Part shown: positions 5,636 through 63,978 of the stretch, one piece after another
How the letters are laid out: each line of letters begins with the position of its first letter
How positions within the stretch are numbered: the first letter of the stretch is position 1
Virus record (IMG/VR): IMGVR_UViG_3300027759_000002
Location: 1-64,000 of that record
DNA: 64,000 bases
Source of the DNA: a virus
Strand: one strand, 5' to 3'
Program-made: the position numbers and the translations under genes
The notes under the pieces: generated by a model
What the model was told of the DNA's origin: nothing
What the model saw: the letters and a program-made list of their open reading frames with translations, nothing else
Database searches by the model: none

Positions 5636-5898
5636 TGACCGATAAAATTGAACACTTGATGTATTGTTCCGGTATGACAGCCCAAGGTTGTTGGGACGAA
5701 ATGGATTCTTATCAACAAAATGCCATCAATTCATTGGTGAAATATGTTGCTATAGAGTGTATGAATGTGATTGTGCAAAATAGAAAATATGCCAGTCAGC
5801 ACAAATGGCCAGCCACCGAGTTGGCCAATGTGTGTTTGTATGAAATTGATAAACTTTTTGGAGTGCAAGAAGATGGAAAAGAAACTGTATCTAGTTGA
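5635..5898 (+). CDS. small hypothetical protein
   Basis: 87 residues, predicted helical, with three Cys in the first 55 residues. No recognisable motif. Its start overlaps the stop of the phosphoesterase gene and its 3' end overlaps the next gene by 26 nt, so it is probably translated by coupling. Unknown function. Confidence 0.6.
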   Translation: MTDKIEHLMYCSGMTAQGCWDEMDSYQQNAINSLVKYVAIECMNVIVQNRKYASQHKWPATELANVCLYEIDKLFGVQEDGKETVSS

Positions 5899-6157
5899 AA
5901 CTGTATCAATGTTTCGTATGCGTTATGTGGTTGAGGCTCGTGAAGAATCTCATGCACATGATGAATTCATTATGGAAATTGGCAAAGAATCTTTCAAAGA
6001 ATTCTCACAACATCATATTGATGAGGTGATTGTTTCTAGTCGTGAATTATCTGCAAAAGATTATTTAAAATTGTTTGACGCAGATAACGATTACTGTAAG
6101 AATTGGGACATTGCCGACAAAATGAAATCAATCAACTCTATTGATTACAAAGAATGA
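5873..6157 (+). CDS. conserved phage protein of unknown function
   Basis: 94 residues from the ATG at 5873, which has GGAG upstream; the open frame reaches back to 5771 but that part overlaps the previous gene and looks non-coding. The sequence begins KKLYLVETVSMFRMRYVV and contains HIDEVIVSSRE and YLKLFDADNDY, a pattern I know as a widespread hypothetical protein of T4-like marine and freshwater phages. Likely a small alpha/beta fold. Overlaps the epimerase gene by 4 nt. Confidence 0.75.
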   Translation: MEKKLYLVETVSMFRMRYVVEAREESHAHDEFIMEIGKESFKEFSQHHIDEVIVSSRELSAKDYLKLFDADNDYCKNWDIADKMKSINSIDYKE

Positions 6158-10909: not shown

Positions 10910-12361
10910 ATGATTTTTGAAATTGAAGCCACACGATTTGAAGATGGTGATAAAAGAGTTTTTCACTATGACAATATGGCTAATGTGTTGAAAGATTCTG
11001 ATGGTAATGTGTTTGAATATCCGGCAGACCAAATGCCACAACATTCTTTGAAACCTTACAAACCATTTGACAAGAATCGTCCACTAAAAAAATCAAAATT
11101 AATCAGCCATTTGAAGATTCAGATGGGGTTGAGTTGTAACTATTCTTGTGATTATTGTTCACAGAAGTTTGTTGAACGCCAACCAGAAACCTCTAAAAAA
11201 GATATTGATGTTTTTATGGAGAAATTAGATAATCTTCATTTTGATGAAGATGTTGGTTTAAGAGTTGAATTTTGGGGTGGTGAACCACTTGTTTATTGGA
11301 AAACAATGAAGCCATTGGCTGAGGCCATTGCAGAAAAATTTGACAGTTGGAAAACTAAACCTATTTTTAGTATCATTACAAATGGTTCTATTTTAACAGA
11401 TGAAATCATTGACTGGTTAATGATGATGGATTTTGGTGTGTCAATCTCACATGACGGTCCAGGTCAATTTGTACGTGGTCCTGATCCTTTTGATGATCCA
11501 GAACAAAAAGAACGTATACTTGGATTCTATCGCATGATGACAAGACTAGGTAAAAGTTTCAGTTTCAATGCAATGTTGAATGCTAAGAACCAAAGTAGAA
11601 AAGAAATCTATGATTGGTTTGTAAATCTCACAGGAGATGAAAATGTTATTATTGGTGAAGGTTCAATGGTTGATGCCTATGATGAAGAAGGTATTTCGTA
11701 TTCACTAATCACAAAACAAGAACATTTTGATTTTAGACAGAAGGCCTTTGGTGAGTTATATGCTTCTGATGGTAAAATTGGTTTCTTGCCTCAGCTGGGT
11801 AAAATTGATGATTTAATGGCCTCAATTTTGAGTCATAGAGAATCTAAATATTTGGGTCAAAAATGTGGTATGGACGATGAACATACAATTTCAGTTGACC
11901 TACGTGGTAATGTGATGACCTGTCAGAACGTAAGTTCTTTGGAAATCTCAAAGAATGGTGAATCGCACCATGGTGGTACATTGGATAATTATTCAAATGT
12001 TGAATTAAAATCTGTCACACATTGGTCAAATCGTAAAGAGTGTCCAGAATGTCCAGTGTTACATATATGTAAAGGTGCATGTATGTTCTTGGATGAAAAA
12101 TATTGGGATATCTCATGTGCAAATGCATATTCAGATAATGTGGCCTTGTTCGCAGCTGCTTTCACTGTAATGACAAATGGTTATATACCAACTTTGATTA
12201 AGAGTGATACTTTACCATTAGATAGACAAGACATTTTTGGTACGATTTTTGAACATAATGAAGAAAATAAGAAAAAAATCATACCAATCAAGGTAGTTAA
12301 AGAGATTATTGGAACTGTTGATGATGTTGCGGTATATGGCAAATCTCGTTTGGAAACCTAA
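10910..12361 (+). CDS. radical SAM/SPASM maturase
   Basis: 483 residues. The radical SAM cluster motif is Cys76-x3-Cys80-x2-Cys83, followed by GGEP near residue 124 (SAM binding). The C-terminus has a complete SPASM pattern: C-x13-G-x4-C (CGMDD...GNVMTC), then C-x2-C-x5-C-x3-C (CPECPVLHICKGAC), then a final Cys in DISCAN, seven Cys that would bind two auxiliary Fe-S clusters. SPASM enzymes (anaerobic sulfatase maturases, sactipeptide and other RiPP maturases) modify residues in peptides or proteins. The substrate is inferred to be the Asn-Cys-rich protein 34 nt downstream. Preceded by a late-type promoter and a good ribosome-binding site. Confidence 0.92.
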   Translation: MIFEIEATRFEDGDKRVFHYDNMANVLKDSDGNVFEYPADQMPQHSLKPYKPFDKNRPLKKSKLISHLKIQMGLSCNYSCDYCSQKFVERQPETSKKDIDVFMEKLDNLHFDEDVGLRVEFWGGEPLVYWKTMKPLAEAIAEKFDSWKTKPIFSIITNGSILTDEIIDWLMMMDFGVSISHDGPGQFVRGPDPFDDPEQKERILGFYRMMTRLGKSFSFNAMLNAKNQSRKEIYDWFVNLTGDENVIIGEGSMVDAYDEEGISYSLITKQEHFDFRQKAFGELYASDGKIGFLPQLGKIDDLMASILSHRESKYLGQKCGMDDEHTISVDLRGNVMTCQNVSSLEISKNGESHHGGTLDNYSNVELKSVTHWSNRKECPECPVLHICKGACMFLDEKYWDISCANAYSDNVALFAAAFTVMTNGYIPTLIKSDTLPLDRQDIFGTIFEHNEENKKKIIPIKVVKEIIGTVDDVAVYGKSRLET

Positions 12362-12395
12362 ATAATAATAATAACATTTTAAAGATAGAGAAAAA

Positions 12396-13304
12396 ATGGC
12401 AACACCAGATTTCAACAGTTCAATTGCAATTTCTCAAATTAATACTGAGGTTGGTAGAGCTGCAACTACGGCAAGTACAGATTTAAACTTTTTAAATAGC
12501 TATTTGAAACCTGCTGGCAGTCCACCGAGGCAGTTAAATCCACAGAGTATGAACGTATATCGTGGTGGTTTAACTTATTACCAAAAAAACAATGCCGGCA
12601 ATTGTAACAACGCTGCTAATGTAACACAGAATTGCAATTGTGGTAATATTCAATGTACTGCAACAAACAACTGTGTTGCAATTAACTGTGCTAATTGTGA
12701 TACACAAAAATGGTTACAAAGCGGAAATTGCCAAGCGGCAACCACACCAGTATACAACTGCACGAACAACCAAAATTGTTTCACCTATAATTGTAATTGT
12801 TCTAAAATTATTTGTACCAAGTTGTTTGATTTGGGATTGATGAAGAAAAACATTTTTGTGGCTGACCAAGCATTTGGTGAACAATTAAAGAAAACACATC
12901 CGGATATATACAATGGTTATCGTGCATGGGCAGAGATTGTTGTTGATTGGATGGACGGTAAAGGACCTAAGATGATGCCTTGGATGTCCGATGAAGATTT
13001 TAGTGTTGCTGCGAAAAAGTGGTCTATCACATGGGCACATGATATTGCAACACCTTGGGCTGAAGAAATGGCCTATATGATGGGTGAAAAAGAAACTGGT
13101 AGTTTAACTGGTAAAATGATGTTTGCATTTGGTACACCAATCTGTAAAGTTATTGGTGTGTGGCAACGTTGGTTTGGACCAAGTAAGAAAGAACCTGGTT
13201 TTATTAAAGGTGCAGGCCTTGTTGTAATTTTTGTTATGTTCAAATTGGTTGCTGAACTTGGTAGATTTATTGAAAAGTTTATTCCAAAGAAAAAGGTGGC
13301 ATAA
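12396..13304 (+). CDS. Asn-Cys-rich protein with C-terminal hydrophobic segment; candidate substrate
   Basis: 302 residues in three parts. (1) N-terminus 1-66 with a SIAISQINTEVGR motif of the kind I associate with phage virion proteins, then a YRGGLTYYQK segment. (2) Residues 70-140 carry 13 Cys, 11 of them preceded by Asn (NC, NCNC repeats), rich in Asn, Gln and Thr. (3) A conserved-looking globular part rich in Trp (WAEIVVDWMDG, MPWMSDEDF, WQRWFGP) and a hydrophobic helix near 272-290 before a basic end. There is no signal peptide. I infer a late, virion- or membrane-associated protein whose Cys-rich part is modified by the radical SAM/SPASM enzyme upstream. The function is unknown. Confidence 0.85.
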   Translation: MATPDFNSSIAISQINTEVGRAATTASTDLNFLNSYLKPAGSPPRQLNPQSMNVYRGGLTYYQKNNAGNCNNAANVTQNCNCGNIQCTATNNCVAINCANCDTQKWLQSGNCQAATTPVYNCTNNQNCFTYNCNCSKIICTKLFDLGLMKKNIFVADQAFGEQLKKTHPDIYNGYRAWAEIVVDWMDGKGPKMMPWMSDEDFSVAAKKWSITWAHDIATPWAEEMAYMMGEKETGSLTGKMMFAFGTPICKVIGVWQRWFGPSKKEPGFIKGAGLVVIFVMFKLVAELGRFIEKFIPKKKVA

Positions 13305-13600
13305 TGGCGACATATTCTTCAAGAAGACCAGTTTTAATAACTGGTGATAGTGGTGATAATAAATATTTGGGTGAACACCTAACACATTTCTTCAACACAA
13401 TTAGTTATAATATTGTAAATTCATTTTCACAAGAAGACAAAGAACGTTTCTTTAAGATGGTAACAGACCATGAAGGTATGATTACTAAATTATACGGAGA
13501 GTGTGTATTGAATTCTGTAATATTTTTACCAGCAGCGATAAAAAAAGGTACAAAAGATAAATTGGTGGACGAATATAAAATATGGTTGGATAATCAATGA
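13304..13600 (+). CDS. small hypothetical protein of the cassette
   Basis: 98 residues. Start overlaps the stop of the Asn-Cys-rich gene by one base (TAATG), so translation is probably coupled. Predicted mostly helical after a short N-terminal strand; contains SYNIVNSFSQEDKERFFKM. No family recognised. Its conserved coupling makes it a candidate partner or chaperone of the upstream protein. Confidence 0.65.
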   Translation: MATYSSRRPVLITGDSGDNKYLGEHLTHFFNTISYNIVNSFSQEDKERFFKMVTDHEGMITKLYGECVLNSVIFLPAAIKKGTKDKLVDEYKIWLDNQ

Positions 13601-13983
13601 AAAACACATTTACTACTTTAGAAACATTAAGAACATCTGATGGAAAGGTAATTATTTTTAGGGGTGAACAACTAGGTAACTTCTTCAAAAAAACATACGA
13701 AGAAAATTTTGCAAATATGACACCAGAAGAAAAGCAAGAAGCATTTCAGGTCGAACAAGAATATGGTGATTTATTGATGAAAATGTGGAAAGAACCATTA
13801 CATAATTTATTGAATCCAGTCACAGGTGCTGGCTGGATTTTACAAGACGAAGAAAGAAATCCAAAAGAAGAATATGAATATGCTTTGTCTATACCAAAAG
13901 ATGAAGATGTGACTGAAGAAGAACACAATTTAAAAATTGAAAGATTAAGATTTTATAAAGAATTGTACGAAAAACAAATTTAA
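13597..13983 (+). CDS. hypothetical protein of the cassette
   Basis: 128 residues, acidic, mostly helical, with many Glu and Lys (EEKQEAFQVEQEYGDLLMKMW). Overlaps the previous gene by 4 nt (ATGA). No motif recognised. It precedes the first of four dioxygenase-type genes. Confidence 0.65.
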   Translation: MKNTFTTLETLRTSDGKVIIFRGEQLGNFFKKTYEENFANMTPEEKQEAFQVEQEYGDLLMKMWKEPLHNLLNPVTGAGWILQDEERNPKEEYEYALSIPKDEDVTEEEHNLKIERLRFYKELYEKQI

Positions 13984-13989
13984 TTCGTT

Positions 13990-14694
13990 ATGACAAATAT
14001 TATGACAAAAAATGATAGAGACCAGTATCACTGGTATCAAAATGCACAAAATATGTTTTGGCAAAGTCCAATTTGGGAAGTGCAAACTCGTTTCGATGAA
14101 CATTTCAATGAAGTTTTATTAGATGAAATTTATGGTATCGGCAAAGATATCGTATTGGGTAAAGACAAAGACCCAAACAACAGTATATGGGACTACAGCA
14201 GACCCAATTTAGATATACTGAAACAAGAAATTGTAGACATAGTAACCAAGAAGATTGTACAGAATATTCCCCAATTAAGAATGTTAAACATTCGTGGTTG
14301 TGAACACTTCATGGGTTGGGTCAATGTACGTGAACCAGGGGAACGTTTGGAAGTTCATGGACACACCGAATCTGCTATCGCAGCAACGTATTACATAAAG
14401 GCTAAAGAAGGTTGTGGTGACCTTGTGGCGTTTGATTCTGCACAAGCAATTGATTGGTTAAATAATACTCTAAGTAACACACCAAAATTGCGAGAACGTA
14501 GGTTTAAACCAGTTGAAGGTAGATTGATATTTTTTCCATCATATGTTTTGCATGGCGTTGATAAAAATAAATCCGATGATTTACGCATTTCATTGTCAAC
14601 CGACCTAAGAAAAGTTGTAGACAAAAATGCACAGAATACGGTAATTTTAAAATCGTGGGCTGGCCGCATGGCAAAAATTAGAGAATGGAAATAA
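13990..14694 (+). CDS. 2-oxoglutarate/Fe(II) dioxygenase-like protein
   Basis: 234 residues. The second half has the jelly-roll pattern of phage 2OG-Fe(II) oxygenases: VHGHTESAIAATYYIKA with His123/His125, GCGDLVAFD, FFPSYVLHGVDKN with the distal His188, and DDLRISLSTDL with Arg199 as likely 2-oxoglutarate anchor. This resembles the family in which a HxHxxS strand precedes YY. The first metal ligand pair is less standard than HxD. Expected to hydroxylate an amino-acid side chain or other small target; the substrate is unknown. Start at 13990 or at 14002. Confidence 0.8.
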   Translation: MTNIMTKNDRDQYHWYQNAQNMFWQSPIWEVQTRFDEHFNEVLLDEIYGIGKDIVLGKDKDPNNSIWDYSRPNLDILKQEIVDIVTKKIVQNIPQLRMLNIRGCEHFMGWVNVREPGERLEVHGHTESAIAATYYIKAKEGCGDLVAFDSAQAIDWLNNTLSNTPKLRERRFKPVEGRLIFFPSYVLHGVDKNKSDDLRISLSTDLRKVVDKNAQNTVILKSWAGRMAKIREWK

Positions 14695-15224
14695 TGTTTA
14701 CAAAACTGGAAACAAATTTTGAAAAACCATTATTTGCAGTTACCGACCCACTAAAAAATTTCAAACACGAAGGTAAAGGTATCGACTATAAAAAGATATG
14801 GTCACCTGAGGCTGACAAAATATATGGTGTGATACCAAAAAGGTACTGGCAGGATTTTCACTTGACAGTAATGACGATTGACTGTATAATCCCACCACAT
14901 ACGGATACGGAAATTATTACTTCAATTAACTTTTACCTACAAACAGAAGATTGTACAACTACATTCTATACACCAAAGGTTGGTAATCCACGAACATTGC
15001 AGGTGGATAATCAAACCAATGGACATATATATTTTGAAGAAGATTTAATTGAAGTTGGTAGTTTTGTTGCTAAAGATTATGAGATTTGGTTACTTGATGT
15101 GAGTCAAATACATGGCGTCAAAGGTGAATTTAATTTACGTAAAGCCATTACCTTAGGAACTTTTGTTCATAAGTATGAGACTGTACTAGAAATGTTAAAG
15201 GAAACCAATAATGTCGTTTGTTAA
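14694..15224 (+). CDS. 2-oxoglutarate/Fe(II) hydroxylase-like protein, paralogue A
   Basis: 176 residues from ATG 14694 (TAATG overlap with the previous stop); an ATG 9 nt earlier is in frame, but the later start aligns with the paralogue that follows. Metal ligands fit HxD...H: His69-Thr-Asp71 (PPHTDTEIITSINFY) and distal His140, followed by an Arg (NLRKAITL). Shares with the next gene the order ERYW/KRYW-DFxxTxM, PHxDxxxITxINFY, GSFxA and LDV, showing a tandem duplication. The two genes overlap by 14 nt. Confidence 0.78.
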   Translation: MFTKLETNFEKPLFAVTDPLKNFKHEGKGIDYKKIWSPEADKIYGVIPKRYWQDFHLTVMTIDCIIPPHTDTEIITSINFYLQTEDCTTTFYTPKVGNPRTLQVDNQTNGHIYFEEDLIEVGSFVAKDYEIWLLDVSQIHGVKGEFNLRKAITLGTFVHKYETVLEMLKETNNVVC

Positions 15225-15879
15225 ATTAAAACACACATATGAATATATGCCTCATACAATCATATCGCAAGGTAAGGCAGATTCTTTTGCTGGTAAATAT
15301 GGATTAGGCGTCAGACATAATACAATTTGGACACCAGAAAAAGAAAAAGAAGTTTTGTATAAAGTTATACCAGAAAGATATTGGAAAGATTTTCAAGTAA
15401 CCAGAATGTCTATTAATAGTTTATTGTTGCCACACGTTGACAACGATTTTATAACAACAATTAATTTTTATTATGATCCACAAAATTACAGAACAATTTT
15501 TTTCAAACCAAAACCTGGAGCAAATTCTTGGAAAACAGAAGAAGATAGACATGATGATGCTGGTTTAAATATGAAAGATGAAAATGTTGATGTTGAGGAA
15601 CTAAAAACCAGAGTTAAAGAATTTGTAGCAGAGAAACAAAATATGTTGACATGTGAAGAAATAACATATGTTGATGCTGTATATACTTTTGATGATGTAT
15701 ATGAAATTGGATCTTTTATTGCTCAACCTAGTGAAGCATATATGTTAGATGTGAGAATACCACATAATGTTGAACCATTAGGCGGCGAAGCAAAACTTAG
15801 AAAGGCATTTTCATTGAGAAGTAAAATATATGATTATGGCCAAGTATATGAGATGTTGCAAGAAACTGGAAATTTATAA
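15211..15879 (+). CDS. 2-oxoglutarate/Fe(II) hydroxylase-like protein, paralogue B
   Basis: 222 residues. Metal ligands HxD...H: His75-Val-Asp77 (PHVDNDFITTINFYY) and distal His185 (RIPHNVEP), with KLRKAFSLRS after it. About 45 residues longer than paralogue A because of a charged insertion between the ligand pairs (roughly 110-165, rich in Asp and Glu). Retention of all ligands in both copies suggests both are active on different sites or substrates. Noticeably AT-rich, like its neighbours. Confidence 0.78.
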   Translation: MSFVKLKHTYEYMPHTIISQGKADSFAGKYGLGVRHNTIWTPEKEKEVLYKVIPERYWKDFQVTRMSINSLLLPHVDNDFITTINFYYDPQNYRTIFFKPKPGANSWKTEEDRHDDAGLNMKDENVDVEELKTRVKEFVAEKQNMLTCEEITYVDAVYTFDDVYEIGSFIAQPSEAYMLDVRIPHNVEPLGGEAKLRKAFSLRSKIYDYGQVYEMLQETGNL

Positions 15880-15889
15880 AGGATAAGAA

Positions 15890-16687
15890 ATGTTTTTTGA
15901 AAAATTAAACTACACAGTAGATATTGAAAAATTAAAACAAGAAGTGAAAGATAGTGTTTTTACTTTAGGTGACCAAGTTATACAAGGTGAAGAATATGAA
16001 ACTCCAAAATACAATGGTTTTGGTGGTTGGAGTTTAATGTGTAAAGAGGCTACATGGACTGGTGGTTGGGAATCTATTCAAATGGAAAAAGGCCAATCAT
16101 TGGAATCATTTTTGCCAACAGAAGAATTGGTACTCAAAGCATACAAATATTTTAATATTTCACATGGACTAGAACATGACAAACCAACTGAAGCATATGT
16201 TGGTGAAATTAAAAAAGTATTAGATGATATACGTGAGATGGGATTCAATCCAGTTAGAGCAAGGGTCACTTGTTTAAAAGCACACTCAAAGAGTTTAGTA
16301 CATAAAGATGCAGATGCAGCTGAATATATGGCACGTATTCATATTCCATTGTTTACAAATAAAAAATGTGTACACATCTGCCAAGGTAAAAACTTACATA
16401 TGCCGGCAGATGGTGGAGTTTGGATTTTGTGGACAAATACTTGGCACCAAATTAGAAATGATTCTGATGAAGATAGGTATCACATTATCATGGATGCATA
16501 CGATACTAAAAAGGTAACAAAATTCTTTAATTATGATGGCAATTTCGAAGAATTGGAAAACTATGTAAGAGGCTTTAGAGAAAAGATTGATGCCGCTGAA
16601 TTGACTGATGAGGATATTGATTTCTTTGATGCTATTAAAGAAAAATATGTCACAAAAAGAGTGAGAGATAACGAAATTACTGTATGA
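15890..16687 (+). CDS. aspartyl/asparaginyl beta-hydroxylase-like protein
   Basis: 265 residues, AAGGATAAG ribosome-binding site. The core ARVTCLKAHSKSLVHKD carries His138-x-Asp140, the next strand is ARIHIPL, and WHQIRNDS gives distal His186 with Arg196 in DRYHII. This order (long Arg/His strand, IPL, distal WH, D-R-x-H) matches the Asp/Asn beta-hydroxylase branch of 2OG oxygenases, which in RiPP pathways and in signalling hydroxylate Asp or Asn. Asn is the residue enriched in the candidate substrate at 12396-13304. Overlaps the next gene by 4 nt. Confidence 0.8.
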   Translation: MFFEKLNYTVDIEKLKQEVKDSVFTLGDQVIQGEEYETPKYNGFGGWSLMCKEATWTGGWESIQMEKGQSLESFLPTEELVLKAYKYFNISHGLEHDKPTEAYVGEIKKVLDDIREMGFNPVRARVTCLKAHSKSLVHKDADAAEYMARIHIPLFTNKKCVHICQGKNLHMPADGGVWILWTNTWHQIRNDSDEDRYHIIMDAYDTKKVTKFFNYDGNFEELENYVRGFREKIDAAELTDEDIDFFDAIKEKYVTKRVRDNEITV

Positions 16688-18201
16688 TGGATACACATGG
16701 AATTGTTTTTACTGGTATGGAACGAACTAGAACAATTAGTCGACCAGCTGGTGCAGCAAGATTGAGAACTTTTTTAGAGCCTCATGGATATAACATCGAG
16801 GTCGTTGATTACTTTGGTAACTTCACTGAAAAAGAAATCGAAACAATCTGTGATAGATTTATTGGACCAAAAACTTTGTTTGTTGGTATCAGTATTACGT
16901 TCATATATGCTTTTGATAAATTAAATCATTTATTCAAATATATCAGAGAGAAATATCCACAGGTGAAAACACTGATTGGTGGCAATGAGACACCAATTGA
17001 TGGTGTTGATTTAACACAAGTGGACAGAGTATTTTGGGGTTACGCTGAAGAAGCAGTATTACACTACCTTAAATTTCTAAACAAAAAACGTTTAGATGAT
17101 TTGAAATGGGTACCATACAAAGGAACACTATCTATCAATGCAGAAATGATATATAAAAATGATGATAGTGATTTAACAATTAAATGGTTAGAAAGTGACT
17201 TAATAAAAAACAACTTTTTACCTATTGAAATTAGTAGAGGTTGTATTTTCAGATGCAGGTTCTGTGCTTTTCCATTGTTGGGTAAAAAGAAGAATGACTA
17301 CATCCGAAAAGTTGATAATTTAGCCGCAGAGTTGCGTAGAAACTATGAGATGTTTGGTGTGAATAACTATTGGTTCAATGATGATACATTCAACGACAAT
17401 GTGGTTAAATTGGATTATGTTGCTGAAGCTATTGCAAAGAGTGGTGTTAAAATTACTTACACAGCATTCTTACGGGCCGATTTGATAGAACGTTTTCCAG
17501 AAACAATATCTATGTTAGCAGATACTGGTTTGGTTGCTGCAACATTTGGTTTAGAAACTTTTCATCCTGAAGCGAAGAAGGCCATCGGAAAAGGCCTAGA
17601 TAATGAAAGACAATTTGAAGCAATTCGCAAACTAAAGAAATATAAACCAATCTACACATACACTGGTATGATATGTGGTTTACCTAGTGAACCACTTTCG
17701 AGTGTATATAAAAGTCAGCAGATTTTACTGGATCAAAATTTTGAAGTATTTGATAATTGGGACTGGTGGCCGTTAATTATCAGAAAAAATTCTGTTAGTA
17801 GATTAAGTGAATTTGAAAAAGAATATGATAAATGGGGATACACTGAAATGACTCATGGTGATTATACATTGTCTAAAGACGATAATGATACTAGATATAA
17901 TAATGATGATAGTAATATGATGATGTGGAAAAACAAATATATGAACTATCTTTCCGCAAGAAAAATTGCCACTTTGTTGAATCTAGAAACGGAAGAACAC
18001 CGCATTAAAGCCGGAAAATCCATCTATGGTAATGCTGACAAAGGAGTTAGTATCAACCATGATGTATTTGAATTGGTTGGTATGGGAGTTGATGTGAAAG
18101 ATATCATTGATGGAACGTTTGATAAGTCTTTTTTGAATCAGAAAATCAAAGAAGCGGATCAAACTATTCTTGAATATAAAAATTTAAAGTTAGGAATATA
18201 A
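16684..18201 (+). CDS. B12-binding-type radical SAM enzyme
   Basis: 505 residues. Residues 1-150 look like a cobalamin-binding Rossmann-type domain (SRPAGAARLRTFLEPHGYNI, GISITF, KTLIGGNE), though a classic DxHxxG is not evident. The radical SAM motif follows as Cys187-x3-Cys191-x2-Cys194 (SRGCIFRCRFCAFP), with FNDDTFND and GLETFHPEAKKAIGKGL as expected in the barrel. In RiPP pathways such enzymes C-methylate unreactive carbons; other members do cyclisation or thiomethylation. The substrate is inferred from context only. Ends one base into the nuclease gene. Confidence 0.87.
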   Translation: MMDTHGIVFTGMERTRTISRPAGAARLRTFLEPHGYNIEVVDYFGNFTEKEIETICDRFIGPKTLFVGISITFIYAFDKLNHLFKYIREKYPQVKTLIGGNETPIDGVDLTQVDRVFWGYAEEAVLHYLKFLNKKRLDDLKWVPYKGTLSINAEMIYKNDDSDLTIKWLESDLIKNNFLPIEISRGCIFRCRFCAFPLLGKKKNDYIRKVDNLAAELRRNYEMFGVNNYWFNDDTFNDNVVKLDYVAEAIAKSGVKITYTAFLRADLIERFPETISMLADTGLVAATFGLETFHPEAKKAIGKGLDNERQFEAIRKLKKYKPIYTYTGMICGLPSEPLSSVYKSQQILLDQNFEVFDNWDWWPLIIRKNSVSRLSEFEKEYDKWGYTEMTHGDYTLSKDDNDTRYNNDDSNMMMWKNKYMNYLSARKIATLLNLETEEHRIKAGKSIYGNADKGVSINHDVFELVGMGVDVKDIIDGTFDKSFLNQKIKEADQTILEYKNLKLGI

Positions 18202-24899: not shown

Positions 24900-26648
24900 T
24901 TACTTTCTTTGGTGTGCTGGTCTATCATCAACCTTTGATGTGTTTGATGATTCGTTTGAATTATTTACATTAGTTGTATTTTGTTGTATGTTTATTGGCG
25001 CAGGAGTATCCTGTTTCTTCATATCTTTATTATCTACAGAAGAATTATTAATTGTAACTCCTGTATTATTTGCTGGTGCTGATTGTGTGGTACTAGATTT
25101 ATTTAATTTTTGAGCTCGGTCATAATCCAAAGCATCACCAACGGCTTCAGGTGGATTATGTGCTGCATTAAATCCACCTGGCGTTTTATAAAAAGTTTCT
25201 CCTTTTTTTAAATCAACGTGTGGTAATGTATTTTTAAATAAACTTTTTGCTTTTATATCATAAGGAACACCAACAGATGCAAATTCCATTGCAAGTGCTA
25301 GTATAGCAGCATCTCTTGTTGCTCCTTCTTTTCCGTTAATATAATCATCAACTGCAAATCGACCTCCACCACCTTTGGTAGTTAGACCCTTTGCAAACAA
25401 CATATCTTGTATTTCTGGTGTTAAATATGTTTTATCAGGATCAAGTTTTAATTTTTCAGCCATGACTTTCATTGTACCAGGAATAAGTTGATATTTACCA
25501 ACAGCAAATAATACATTTGGATCAGATGCATCTAATTTGCCACCAGCATCTAATTTTTTATTTGTTCTTTTCAAATAATCAGCGATTGTCATTTTACTAA
25601 AATCTATATTATTTGATTTTAGATATGCACCTTCGTTCTTCTTGGCAAGAAAATAATCACCTCTATTATATGCATTATAACCTTTATCTCCAGATTCATA
25701 CTTTGAAATGTTGGTAGCTAAAGCTTCTCTGCCTGAAAGTATTCCAATAACGGCCGCACCAGCACCAATCTTTTCTGCTGTAGAAACAGCCGACTTAGGT
25801 GGTGTAGGAGGTTTCTGAGTTGCAGTAGAGGGTTTAACCGGTTCTGCATCTTTCTTTAATTTTTCAGATTTAGCTTTCTCCGCAGCCTCACGTTTTAATT
25901 TTTCTTGTTCCTCTTTCTTTAATTTTTCTGCTGTTTCTTTCTTAGCCTTTTCCTCAGCAGCTTTCTTAGCCTTTTCTTCAGCAGCTTTCTTAGCCTTTTC
26001 CTCAGCTTCTTTTTTGGCTTTGGTTTCAGCAGCTTTTTTGGCTGCCTCTTGAGCATCTTTTTTAGCCTTTTCTTCAGCAGCTTTTTTAACTCCGTCATCA
26101 ACTTCTCTTTTGGCTTTTTCAGCTGGTTTAGCTGGCTCTGCTGGTTTCTTTGCAGGTTCAGCTGGTTTAGATGGCTCTGCTGGTTTCTTTGCAGGTTCAG
26201 CTGGTTTAGATGGCTCTGCTGGTTTCTTAGGTGGTTCACCAGTTTTCTTAGGCGGTTCTTTGGCCTTTTCTTCTGCCTTCTTCTCACGGCGTATAACTGC
26301 TTTAGGTTTCGGTCTTCTACGTATAGTCAAGGCCTTGACTATTTCAGAGTGTCTTTTTTGTTCCTCAGAATCTTCTTCCTCTCTAAAGTTAACCTGTTGT
26401 TCACGTTCTAATTTTATATCAACACTGTTTTGCACCATCAATTTATAAATTTCACCGAGATATTCGGCGTTAGACATTGAATCGGTGTCAGTTATCTTTT
26501 CTGTTGAACCAAATTTTTTGTGCAGAATATCACCAATTTTATTGACAGACCTTTTTAAAAATCCAGCCGATTGTTTAGTTTTTTCAGACGCAACAGGGCT
26601 TGACGATTTATCGCCTGTGCCTTCTTTTTTATTTCCGAATAACTTCAT
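24900..26648 (-). CDS. tape-measure-like protein with lysozyme-like domain
   Basis: 582 residues, close to the length of the T4 tape measure gp29 (590). Residues 60-110 include the DIKL...RHSEIVKAL pattern. Residues 125-180 are PAEPxKP repeats and 180-265 a TolA-like Lys/Ala/Glu helix (EEKAKKAAEEKAKKAAEE). Residues 305-490 form a lysozyme/transglycosylase-like domain (NISKYESGDKGYNAYNRG with candidate Glu318; FAVGKYQLIPGTM at 381-393). The C-terminus is Asn/Thr-rich. Position directly after a tail tube gene and a frameshifting chaperone-like gene supports a tape-measure role; the enzyme domain would help penetrate peptidoglycan. Confidence 0.7.
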   Translation of the reverse strand: MKLFGNKKEGTGDKSSSPVASEKTKQSAGFLKRSVNKIGDILHKKFGSTEKITDTDSMSNAEYLGEIYKLMVQNSVDIKLEREQQVNFREEEDSEEQKRHSEIVKALTIRRRPKPKAVIRREKKAEEKAKEPPKKTGEPPKKPAEPSKPAEPAKKPAEPSKPAEPAKKPAEPAKPAEKAKREVDDGVKKAAEEKAKKDAQEAAKKAAETKAKKEAEEKAKKAAEEKAKKAAEEKAKKETAEKLKKEEQEKLKREAAEKAKSEKLKKDAEPVKPSTATQKPPTPPKSAVSTAEKIGAGAAVIGILSGREALATNISKYESGDKGYNAYNRGDYFLAKKNEGAYLKSNNIDFSKMTIADYLKRTNKKLDAGGKLDASDPNVLFAVGKYQLIPGTMKVMAEKLKLDPDKTYLTPEIQDMLFAKGLTTKGGGGRFAVDDYINGKEGATRDAAILALAMEFASVGVPYDIKAKSLFKNTLPHVDLKKGETFYKTPGGFNAAHNPPEAVGDALDYDRAQKLNKSSTTQSAPANNTGVTINNSSVDNKDMKKQDTPAPINIQQNTTNVNNSNESSNTSKVDDRPAHQRK

Positions 26649-59724: not shown

Positions 59725-62700
59725 ATGGAATTTACTTACATTGGCAATCAAGATAAGAAGGATGTAAGGTTAGCTGGTTCATTTGCTAATGGTGCATTTG
59801 TAACTGCTAACTCAGCAGCCTCTTTTGCCAATGCGGCTTTTGCTAGGGCCAACGCAGCCTATGCACAAGCAAATACTGGTGGAAACTTTACTGCATCACC
59901 AGTATCAGTTTATTCCGATGCGTTCACCGCTAATGGTGCAACATCAACATTTAATTTAAGTACAACACCATCAAGTGAAAACTATATAATTGCGGTAGTC
60001 GATGGTATTACTCAATTAAGAAGTACATATACTGTTACAGGTAATGTAGTTTACTTTGATACCACATTTGAAAATGGTGCCAATGTTGAGATAACAACTA
60101 TCACTGGCGGTGGTGCCGTAGATCCATATGCATCAAACACTGCCAATGCAGCGTATGCAACTGCTAATGCGGCCTTTTTGCAGGCCAACAATAGTTCCAC
60201 CGATACATGGGTAAGAACACAAGCTAACACGGCATACGATAAGGCCAACTCGGCAGCTTCGTTTGCCAATGGTTCTTTTGTAGTTGCCAACTCAACATCT
60301 ATATTTGCTAATGCATCTTTCGATAGAGCCAATGCTGCTTATGCACAGGCAAATAATTCTACTGATACGTGGGTAAGAAGTCAGGCTAATAATGCATTTG
60401 ATACGGCTAATTCATCAGCATCGTTTGCCAATGCGTCCTTTGTAACCGCTAATGCATCATATCTTTCACAAAACACTACTGCAATCTTTTCTAATGCAGC
60501 CTTTGACCGTGCTAATGCGGCCTACGCACAGGCTAATAATTCAACAGATACTTGGGTAAGAGGTCAGGCTAATAATTCATACGATAAAGCCAATAGTGCT
60601 GGCAGTTTTGCTAATGGTGCATTTGTAACTGCTAACTCAGCAGCAAGTTTTGCTAACGGAGCATTCACAACATCCAATACAGCTGATAGTAAAGCAACAA
60701 GTGCTGGTTCATTTGCTAATGGTGCATTTGATAGAGCAAACTCCAGTTATACTACGGCAAATTCAGGTTCTAGTTTTGCTAATTCATCTTTTGTAACAGC
60801 CAATGCGGCAGCATCATTTGCTAATGGTGCATTTACACAAGCCAATACCGGTGTAACAATATCTAGTTTGGCTTTTAACCATGCTAATGCAGCCTATGCA
60901 CAAGCAAATACATCTGGTGGTGCGGACACTTTTGCGAGAGCACAAGCAAATGCGGCTTTTAGTACAGCCAATTTAGCATACAGTACAATTATTACAGCCA
61001 GTAATACAGCGGCATTGTATTATATCACCAGAAATTTTATTGGTGATGGTAACACAAACAACTTTTCAATTTCATCCAATACATCTGCGAATAGTATTCT
61101 TGTTTTTGATAATGGTATTACACAGAATCCAATAACGGACTATAGTGTAACAGGAAACACAATCATCTTTGTGGATACTCCAGCAAATGGAACAATAATT
61201 CAAGTACGTGAATTATTAAGTAATGTTCCTGTTGTTACTGATAATTCCAATTCAGCATTTAACAGAGCCAATTCATCATATTCAACGGCCAATGCAGCCT
61301 TTAATGCAGCCAATAACTCTACTGATACTTGGGTAAGAGGTCAGGCTAATAATGCATTTGCTGCAGCCAATTCATCCGGTAATTTTGCAAATGCATCTTT
61401 CATAACCTCCAATTCAGCCGCTGTATTTGCTAATGGTGCCTTCGATAAGGCAAATGCAGCCTTTAATGCGGCCAATAATTCCACCGATACTTGGGTCAGA
61501 ACACAAGCAAACACAGCATACACGGCAGCTAACTCAGCGGCCAGTTTTGCTAACGGTGCTTTTGTACAGGCAAACAATGCAGGTTCATTTGCTAATGGTG
61601 CTTTTGTTGGCGCCAATGCAGCTGCTTCATTCGCTAATGGTGCATTTGACCGTGCGAATTCTAGTTACGGAGTTGCAAATACTGGTTCTAGTTTTGCCAA
61701 TGGTGCATTTGTTGTTGCCAACTCAGCAGCCAGTTTTGCAAATGCATCCTTTATAGTTGCAAACTCAGCAGCATCATTTGCTAATGGTGCTTTTGTAACT
61801 GCTAATGCTTCTTACACATCACAAAATATAACTGCTGGATTTGCTAATGCATCTTATACAACAGCAAATGCAGTTTATGTATCTCAAAATATAACGGCCG
61901 GATTGGCCAATGCATCTTTTGTAACAGCTAATGCATCCTATACAGCACAAAATACTACTGCATCATTTGCTAATGGTGCTTTTGTAACTGCTAATGCATC
62001 ATATGTTGCACAGAATATCACGGCAGGTTTTGCTAATGCTGCATTTGTAACAGCTAATGCTTCTTATGCATCTCAGAATACTACAGCATCATTCGCTAAC
62101 GGTGCCTTCATAACTGCTAATGCATCTTACACATCACAAAACACCACGGCATCATTTGCTAACAGTGCCTTTGTAACTGCTAACGCAGCCTTTAATGCAG
62201 CCAACACCGGCAGTGCAGATGCATATGCAAGAAGTACAGCCAATGCAGCTTTCGTTACCGCAAACTTAGCATACAGTACAATTATTACAGCCAGTAATAC
62301 AGCTTCAGTTTATTATATAACCAGAAATTTTACTGGTGATGGTAACACGAATACATTTTCAATTTCATCTAACACAACTGCAAATAGTATACTTGTTTTT
62401 GATAATGGTATTACACAAAATCCACTAACAGATTATAGTGTAACAGGAAATACTATTACTTTTGTGGATACTCCAGCAAATGGAACAATAATTCAAGTAC
62501 GTGAATTATTAAGTAATGTTCCTGTTGTTACAGACAACTCCAATTCTGCTTTTGTTAGAGCAAACTCCGCATATGCAACAGCAAATGCTGCCTTCTTACA
62601 AGCCAATAATTCTACTGATAGTTGGGTAAGAACTCAAGCTAATAATGCATATGATAAGGCCAATAGTGCTGGCAGTTTTGCTAATGGTGCCTTCATAACT

Positions 62701-63978
62701 GCTAATGCTGCCTTTAATGCGGCCAATAACTCAACAGATACTTGGGTAAGAACACAAGCAAACGCAGCATACAATGCAGCCAATTCTGGTGCATCATTTG
62801 CTAATGGTGCCTTCATAACAGCCAATGCAGCATATGCTTGGGGCAATCATGCTTCTGCTGGATATGCAACAACAACTTATGTTGGTAATGCAATTGCAAA
62901 TCTTGTAAACTCTGCGCCAACAACGTTAGATACATTAAATGAATTGGCAACTGCGTTAGGTAACGATGCCAACTTTAGCACAACAATTGCAACATCAATA
63001 GGTGTAACCAACTCATTTGCAAACGGTGCATTTCTAAGAGCCAATGCGTCTTATATTGCACAAAATACCACAGCAACATTTGCTAATGCAGCTTTTATAA
63101 CTGCTAATGCATCATATACAGCACAAAATACAACTGCTGGATTTGCTAACGCATCTTACATAACAGCCAATTCTGGTGCATTATTTGCTAACAGTGCCTT
63201 TGTAACCGCTAATGCTTCTTATGCCTCTCAGAATACCACAGCATCATTTGCTAATGGTGCTTTCGATAAAGCAAACTCAGCTGCATCATTCGCTAACGGT
63301 GCCTTTGTAACTGCTAACGCAGCCTTCAATGCAGCTAACAATGCAACGGATCCGTGGGTTAGAAATCAAGCCAACAACGCATACAATACAGCTAACGCAG
63401 CTTTCATAGCAGCCAATACTGCCGGTGGTGCAGACACTTGGGCAAGAGCGCAAGCAAATGCGGCTTACAATAAAGCAAACACCAGTTCTACTGCAACATT
63501 AACAGGTTTTGTTGATGTGTTTACTGGCGATGGTTCAAATTCAGCATTCACTTTGTCAACAACACCAGACAGTGAAAACATAATCTTTGTTTCTGTACAA
63601 GGTGTGATGCAACCTAAAACTTCTTATAGTTTATCAGGAAACATTTTAACATTTGATTCTGTTCCACCAAACACAGCATACATTGAAGTCACAACATTAT
63701 CAGGTACAAATATAAGTTCTAGTAGTTTAATATATAGAACATATACAGGCAACAATACTGCAACAAACTTTACAGTAACCTCTGGTGTAAATGTAAACAA
63801 TTTACTTGTTGCAGAAAACGGTATTTTACAGAGACCAACTACAGACTACACAGTATCTGGTGCAAACGTAGTATTTGCAACTGCGCCTGCCACTGGTGTT
63901 GATATTCAAGTGCGTGAATTAGCAGTTACAGTATCTTCAGCTGAAACATTAAGCCCATTTTTATTAATGGGTGGATAA
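59725..63978 (+). CDS. long repeat-built tail fibre
   Basis: 1417 residues, largely several dozen copies of a 12-22 residue motif (SFANGAFVTANAS, AQNTTASFANGAF, ANNSTDTWVRTQANxAYDKAN), rich in Ala and Asn, expected to form a repetitive shaft. Compact beta inserts interrupt it: nt about 59900-60120, 60973-61260, 62266-62553 (the last two nearly identical), 62820-63010 (AWGNHASAGYA, TLDTLNELATALG) and the end 63505-63930. The tip ends LSPFLLMGG. Start MEFTYIGNQDKK follows the previous stop by one base. Host-range fibre candidate. Confidence 0.8.
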   Translation: MEFTYIGNQDKKDVRLAGSFANGAFVTANSAASFANAAFARANAAYAQANTGGNFTASPVSVYSDAFTANGATSTFNLSTTPSSENYIIAVVDGITQLRSTYTVTGNVVYFDTTFENGANVEITTITGGGAVDPYASNTANAAYATANAAFLQANNSSTDTWVRTQANTAYDKANSAASFANGSFVVANSTSIFANASFDRANAAYAQANNSTDTWVRSQANNAFDTANSSASFANASFVTANASYLSQNTTAIFSNAAFDRANAAYAQANNSTDTWVRGQANNSYDKANSAGSFANGAFVTANSAASFANGAFTTSNTADSKATSAGSFANGAFDRANSSYTTANSGSSFANSSFVTANAAASFANGAFTQANTGVTISSLAFNHANAAYAQANTSGGADTFARAQANAAFSTANLAYSTIITASNTAALYYITRNFIGDGNTNNFSISSNTSANSILVFDNGITQNPITDYSVTGNTIIFVDTPANGTIIQVRELLSNVPVVTDNSNSAFNRANSSYSTANAAFNAANNSTDTWVRGQANNAFAAANSSGNFANASFITSNSAAVFANGAFDKANAAFNAANNSTDTWVRTQANTAYTAANSAASFANGAFVQANNAGSFANGAFVGANAAASFANGAFDRANSSYGVANTGSSFANGAFVVANSAASFANASFIVANSAASFANGAFVTANASYTSQNITAGFANASYTTANAVYVSQNITAGLANASFVTANASYTAQNTTASFANGAFVTANASYVAQNITAGFANAAFVTANASYASQNTTASFANGAFITANASYTSQNTTASFANSAFVTANAAFNAANTGSADAYARSTANAAFVTANLAYSTIITASNTASVYYITRNFTGDGNTNTFSISSNTTANSILVFDNGITQNPLTDYSVTGNTITFVDTPANGTIIQVRELLSNVPVVTDNSNSAFVRANSAYATANAAFLQANNSTDSWVRTQANNAYDKANSAGSFANGAFITANAAFNAANNSTDTWVRTQANAAYNAANSGASFANGAFITANAAYAWGNHASAGYATTTYVGNAIANLVNSAPTTLDTLNELATALGNDANFSTTIATSIGVTNSFANGAFLRANASYIAQNTTATFANAAFITANASYTAQNTTAGFANASYITANSGALFANSAFVTANASYASQNTTASFANGAFDKANSAASFANGAFVTANAAFNAANNATDPWVRNQANNAYNTANAAFIAANTAGGADTWARAQANAAYNKANTSSTATLTGFVDVFTGDGSNSAFTLSTTPDSENIIFVSVQGVMQPKTSYSLSGNILTFDSVPPNTAYIEVTTLSGTNISSSSLIYRTYTGNNTATNFTVTSGVNVNNLLVAENGILQRPTTDYTVSGANVVFATAPATGVDIQVRELAVTVSSAETLSPFLLMGG
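60973..61260 (+). repeat. long direct repeat in the fibre gene, copy 1
   Basis: Near-identical to 62266-62553, offset 1293 nt (431 codons). It encodes YSTIITASNTAALYYITRNF through VPVVTDNSN. Both copies keep the reading frame, so it is a duplicated beta module. Confidence 0.85.
62266..62553 (+). repeat. long direct repeat in the fibre gene, copy 2
   Basis: Second copy of the 60973-61260 module, with scattered mostly conservative substitutions (for example ITQNPLTDY for ITQNPITDY). Confidence 0.85.

Follow-up and report, generated by a model that had tools for sequence, protein, structure and literature searches.

A cysteine-rich array in fiber-like phage proteins and its SPASM radical SAM partner: a candidate cassette for the modification of fiber tips

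Two adjacent genes on the plus strand (positions 10,910 to 13,304) of the window, the 64,000-nucleotide stretch of the viral record IMGVR_UViG_3300027759_000002 analyzed here, encode a SPASM radical SAM enzyme and a protein that carries a dense asparagine-cysteine array. The pair probably constitutes a post-translational modification cassette for the tip of a phage tail fiber or adhesin, in which the enzyme would act on the array of its neighbor (probability about 0.72). The array protein of the window belongs to a system of two genes that is widespread, and the association of array and enzyme across many unrelated phages points to an undescribed viral modification of host-recognition fiber tips.

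The array protein (12,396-13,304, plus strand; 302 residues) is encoded 34 bases downstream of the radical SAM gene. Alignment with its IMG/VR relatives delineates three modules, namely an N-terminal segment with an INTE-x-GR motif (residues 1-66; 12,396-12,593), the array (residues 69-140; 12,600-12,815), and a helical domain that starts with SKIICTKL, referred to below as the KIICTKL domain (residues 137-293; 12,804-13,274). A first-pass annotation of the sequence had counted 13 Cys residues between positions 70 and 140, 11 of them after Asn, and had considered this composition extraordinary. The count was confirmed, with Cys residues at positions 70, 80, 82, 87, 93, 98, 101, 112, 122, 128, 133, 135, and 140, as well as at position 250 outside of the array, and the only ones of the array that do not follow Asn are C87, preceded by Gln, and C140, preceded by Ile. 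The composition is indeed extreme, since shuffling the segment's own residues yielded a mean of 3.1 NC pairs and at least 10 pairs only once in 100,000 shuffles. Across the ORFs of the window of at least 200 residues, Cys represents 0.57% of all residues, and no further ORF of at least 100 residues in the window has more than seven Cys per 71 residues. In the window protein, the array has an irregular pattern and does not alternate strictly. An alignment that could distinguish conserved spacing from conserved composition had been proposed, and in the phage group of the window the spacing turned out to be conserved as well, with GNCN, NCNCGNIQC, NCDxQxWLQ, YNC, and CNCSKIIC as the conserved array positions.

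The array region is predicted to be disordered, with pLDDT values below 50 over residues 75-99 and 112-136; "array" is thus a label for sequence, with no predicted fold behind the word. The C-terminal domain is modeled confidently as helical (pLDDT about 90), and its last helix (residues 269-295) is hydrophobic in the model, as the first-pass annotation had noticed. A fold search of the PDB with the model of the protein gave no match below E 0.1, and its significant matches in a viral structure library were all uncharacterized phage proteins. Searches of Pfam, PHROGs, and NCBIfam with the protein matched nothing, and no Hint domain was detected in it with Pfam. The proposal that its ends resemble those of virion proteins holds in part: the INTEVGR segment is present and related array carriers are tail fibers, but the window protein itself has no PHROG match. 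The N-terminal module is common to array-bearing proteins and to some array-less phage proteins (the ORF at 5,708-6,139 of locus L319, and loci L026-L029).

The pairing of array and enzyme was counted in both directions. For the enzyme side, 80 viral and 80 bacterial-genome loci were fetched by a profile search, and the count was made on enzymes dereplicated at 85% identity that scored at least 520 bits and had at least 3.5 kb of upstream and 1.5 kb of downstream sequence. An array gene, with Cys after Asn, Ala, or Asp, was found within 6 kb and on the same strand at 62 of these 64 non-redundant enzymes (22/22 viral, 26/27 bacterial-genome, and 14/15 pattern-derived loci). One of the two loci without such a gene, L284, carries its array just beyond the 6-kb limit, and the other, L124, is a metagenome contig in which the fiber relative ends abnormally, so that the fiber gene looks disrupted. 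SPASM relatives below 460 bits in the same genome collection, some of them partial, were accompanied by an array in none of seven cases. Several of the bacterial-genome loci (L122, L133, and L159) look like prophages, because tail-fiber genes, and in L133 also a lysozyme-like gene, lie beside the pair; the MAG organism labels of such loci are not to be read as hosts.

For the array side, a blind DNA pattern search for NCNCNCNC in IMG/VR returned 120 stretches. Where an ORF-encoded array had 4.5 kb of sequence on either side, the enzyme was present beside it in 14 of 15 cases, the exception (L289) being a 46-residue ORF that looks spurious, and beside none of the 15 matches located outside any ORF. 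Among loci with incomplete flanks, it was found next to 60 of 90 ORF-encoded arrays, and searching the whole records recovered it for 13 of 23 further loci. The arrays that were still without an enzyme are mostly short fragments, with the exception of L283 and L233, two arrays on long records in which the enzyme was still not found. In loci L096 to L116, the array gene immediately follows the enzyme gene and overlaps its end. The pairing also extends to an independent lineage represented by the Achromobacter phages JWF and 2-1, in which an enzyme of 44% identity, annotated in JWF as a sulfatase-maturating enzyme, is encoded two genes after a Hint-containing fiber that carries NCNCDCNCNCSC or NCNCDCNCSC.

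The carriers of the array are fiber-like proteins of about 65-620 residues. Among 158 unique arrays, Cys is preceded by Asn in 74% of cases, by Ala in 13%, and by Asp in 7%, and many arrays are strictly alternating, with a Cys at every second residue. The array forms the end of the protein in 110 of these 158 cases and precedes the KIICTKL domain in 27. About ten arrays stand before a Hint domain and at least one before an S74-type sequence, L282 being a further S74-like case. In the JWF fiber, Hint (PF05203) starts at residue 308, directly after the array. Hint and S74 domains cut themselves off, and hence the array would become the end of the mature protein in these carriers too. The carrier of L122 matches tail-fiber PHROGs, and in L133 and L159 such matches come from genes that lie upstream of the array gene; in the window, the array gene is located near phoH and not next to recognized tail genes. 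In many prophage cassettes, a conserved protein of 260-300 residues without family match is encoded near the array gene, the oxygenase, and the enzyme (L133, 6,623-7,408; L122, 6,477-7,331; L159, 5,312-6,214). A second, more distant system might be represented by proteins of 65-80 residues that end like HTHIFYDDYSTACNCNCNCNC.. in L204, L210, L245, L253, and L269, whose records contain several weaker radical SAM homologs.

Homologs of the KIICTKL domain that lack the array offer a natural comparison. In loci L025 to L036, which include Synechococcus phage SynMITS9220M01, the domain follows a polyglycine stretch instead of an array, or polyPro/Arg in the last of them, and none of these loci contains the enzyme. 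In the whole records of the array-less phages, a full-length enzyme was found only in G007 (locus L032), where it adjoins a separate NC-array protein of 143 residues; in G008, nothing more than two weak, partial radical SAM matches turned up. The pattern that the first-pass annotation had named as refuting its reading, loss of the array with retention of the enzyme, was thus not encountered. In L025, L030, and L031, one and the same phage has the polyglycine-KIICTKL module in two distinct proteins, which suggests that it is a swappable end module.

The enzyme of the window (10,910-12,361, plus strand; 483 residues; PF04055; phrog_1802, 2e-62) is a full-length, intact SPASM enzyme. The radical SAM motif CX3CX2C corresponds to C76, C80, and C83, and the seven SPASM cysteines, in the pattern C-gap-GX4C, CX2CX5CX3C, C, to C319, C338, C378, C381, C387, C391, and C403; none of these cysteines varies among 27 sequences, the most divergent of which have about 30% identity. 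As expected of a SPASM peptide maturase, its gene lies beside that of a Cys-rich or repeat-bearing candidate substrate. The structure model (pLDDT 90) matches SPASM enzymes that modify peptides, among them anSME, the thioether-forming CteB, ChlB, TigE, and SuiB. Near-matches in NCBIfam include PapB, QhpD-type, SCIFF, and CcpM maturases, and the best of them, PapB, scored 78 bits against a cut-off of 340; none of the curated maturase cut-offs of NCBIfam (PapB, ScfB, CcpM, QhpD, and others) is reached. In L225, L226, L310, L317, and L156, the main enzyme has another radical SAM ORF, of about 340-360 residues, as its immediate neighbor, as if some cassettes used two radical SAM enzymes.

According to the mechanism that we favor, the SPASM enzyme would have the virion protein encoded next to it as substrate, with the Cys-rich array as its target. 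The most likely product would be sulfur-to-carbon thioethers between Cys thiols and the carbons of nearby Asn, or Ala and Asp, residues, as in ranthipeptides and sactipeptides. By analogy, we put thioether formation first, since it is Cys that is selected in the arrays and since thioethers are what the maturases closest to the enzyme produce; the family similarity behind this choice is weak, far below every curated cut-off. A 2OG-Fe(II) oxygenase would probably add further oxidation in most cassettes. As the array would normally be the mature end of the fiber, either as the last stretch or in front of a Hint or S74 domain whose self-removal is expected, the outcome would be a rigid, non-standard fiber tip made in the reducing cytoplasm of the host before phage release. 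Such a tip would replace the polyglycine tip of related phages and serve in host attachment or tip stability. In its most general form, tailed phages of many lineages would use a dedicated radical SAM pathway, complemented by the 2OG oxygenase, to build a new polymer-like, thioether-crosslinked or otherwise non-proteinogenic tip on receptor-binding fibers that is interchangeable with polyglycine tips and exposed at the end of the mature fiber through self-cleavage by Hint or S74, a proposition to which we give even odds.

The enzyme might perform a different reaction on the array. If it were to convert array Cys residues to formylglycine in the manner of anSME, a row of reactive aldehydes on the fiber tip could bind host amines covalently. 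The anSME of Clostridium perfringens is the top structural match of the model and a good sequence match as well, and the annotation of the JWF enzyme goes in the same direction. Nevertheless, the Asp residue that follows an auxiliary-cluster Cys in anSME (PCDFY), the catalytic base, aligns with Q339 in the window enzyme (TCQN), and this column contains Gln in most of the family and Asp in none of the aligned rows shown. With, in addition, no CxPxR or CxAxR sulfatase motif seen on inspection of the array and no sulfatase-maturase family model reached, formylglycine formation is unlikely. Epimerization would yield D-residues and an alternating L/D or polyglycine-like helix, which would explain the exact replacement of polyglycine by the array and fit the strict every-second-residue pattern of many arrays. 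The epimerase YydG is among the distant sequence matches, but only through the radical SAM core (E 4e-8), as for most family members, and the conservation of Cys itself, beyond mere spacing, suggests that the thiol is used; we consider this reaction very unlikely.

Alternatively, the array might be a metal or Fe-S site or a disulfide-bonded tip, and the enzyme could act on another neighbor instead. The first-pass annotation had listed metal or Fe-S binding, disulfides, radical SAM crosslinking, and Asn hydroxylation as possible fates of the array. Its high Cys density is compatible with the first two, and disulfides or metal sites can stabilize fiber tips, but neither gained specific support. 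The nearly one-to-one relationship between array and enzyme clade, which holds in phages whose remaining gene content differs, and the lack of a local enzyme beside array-less homologs, strongly favor the radical SAM link. Moreover, the cytoplasm is reducing, and the regular XCXCXC pattern is, to our knowledge, unlike the spacing of known metal sites, which makes a metal- or disulfide-based tip quite unlikely. That the NC repeat is a functionless expansion of AT-rich codons is hardly credible and already contradicted. Asn and Cys codons are relatively AT-rich and the length of the array varies, but arrays are found in loci of up to 0.68 G+C, and in those above 0.52 Asn still precedes Cys in 71% of cases, so that codon composition does not explain the preference for Asn. 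The Cys positions are conserved in aligned array proteins and the arrays are paired with an enzyme; the array residues are selected and not compositional.

The modification cassette that we favor may include further enzymes. A 2OG-Fe(II) oxygenase of the PF13759 type (TIGR02466-like, phrog_81), encoded at 13,990-14,694 (plus strand) in the window, is a candidate second modifying enzyme. Of 129 cassettes whose flanks are complete, 96 (about 74%) contain an oxygenase of this type, in orders such as radical SAM-array-oxygenase in T4-like phages and array-oxygenase-radical SAM in prophages. It was present in four records with the pair and in none of seven phage records without enzyme and array. 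Hydroxylation of Asn is thus possible. The absence of the oxygenase from about a quarter of the cassettes speaks against the proposed pathway, and since a search of the JWF record, which has the pair, gave no PF13759 match, the oxygenase is an accessory. The aspartyl/asparaginyl beta-hydroxylase-like protein (PF05118; 15,890-16,687, plus strand), whose link to the array is limited to the phage group of the window, was rejected as an array-specific hydroxylase since PF05118 also occurs in array-less phages.

Other neighbors, all on the plus strand, are a 98-residue protein (13,304-13,600) whose family is conserved next to the array gene and also next to some array-less homologs, a 128-residue protein of the same family (13,597-13,983), and a 179-residue protein (14,685-15,224) that is conserved in the phage group of the window only, has no family match, and resembles 2OG oxygenases by eye alone. 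They are followed by a 222-residue member of the latter family (15,211-15,879) and, downstream of the PF05118 gene, by a PhpK-like, B12-binding radical SAM protein (16,684-18,201) present in part of the group. In two loci, a flavin halogenase-like protein is encoded in a cluster with radical SAM, 2OG oxygenase, and B12 radical SAM genes (L319, 8,464-9,648; L094, 11,183-12,301, PF04820, E 9e-95), which suggests that the enzymes for protein modification form a larger set.

SPASM radical SAM enzymes are involved in the biosynthesis of peptide natural products and in the maturation of a few enzymes. The closest parallel is the maturation of ranthipeptides and sactipeptides (PapB, SCIFF/CteB, CcpM, thuricin-type), in which a SPASM gene also lies beside that of a Cys-rich substrate, and to which the CteB match in fold and the PapB match in sequence relate the window enzyme. 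In contrast, the substrate proposed here is fiber-like and of phage origin, with a usually C-terminal array rather than a short leader-core precursor, and the enzyme is far below the family cut-offs. QhpD, a SPASM enzyme that modifies an enzyme subunit and not a secreted peptide in the maturation of quinohemoprotein amine dehydrogenase (TIGR03906), has weak sequence similarity to the window enzyme, but here the context is phage, without dehydrogenase genes, and there is an array instead of a few crosslinks. anSME also acts on Cys, but differs by the residue discussed above and by its sulfatase substrates, of which there is none here. Finally, the polyglycine-tipped phage adhesins of the gp38 type resemble the array proteins in the position of the tip, and polyglycine occupies the place of the array in homologs of the window protein; this is a likeness by description, and the Asn-Cys array differs in having a radical SAM partner.

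SPASM-type maturation as such is known, and the novelty would lie in an undescribed class of substrate, the viral fiber tip. We know of no virus that uses a SPASM radical SAM enzyme to build its own virion, and the literature searched, which left out most subscription journals, contained no description of the pairing. At high similarity, the enzyme occurs in only two of 50,697 phage records, those of JWF and 2-1, which would explain why the pairing has gone unnoticed; no related enzyme was found in the plasmids searched. The window enzyme belongs to phrog_1802, whose label, radical SAM domain-containing protein, gives no substrate or role. If our reading is correct, it would add enzyme-made chemistry to host recognition by phages, make available an enzyme whose targets are long, simple repeats at protein ends, and provide phrog_1802 with an immediately testable role.

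Elsewhere in the window, ARAGORN detected a permuted-type tmRNA in the phage genome (18,867-19,227, plus strand), with the tag ANDSQFALAA. Long degenerate tandem repeats at 61,546-63,171 are likely to be coding, for fiber-type proteins (FANGAFVTANASY-type); another block of repeats is located at 25,894-26,228.
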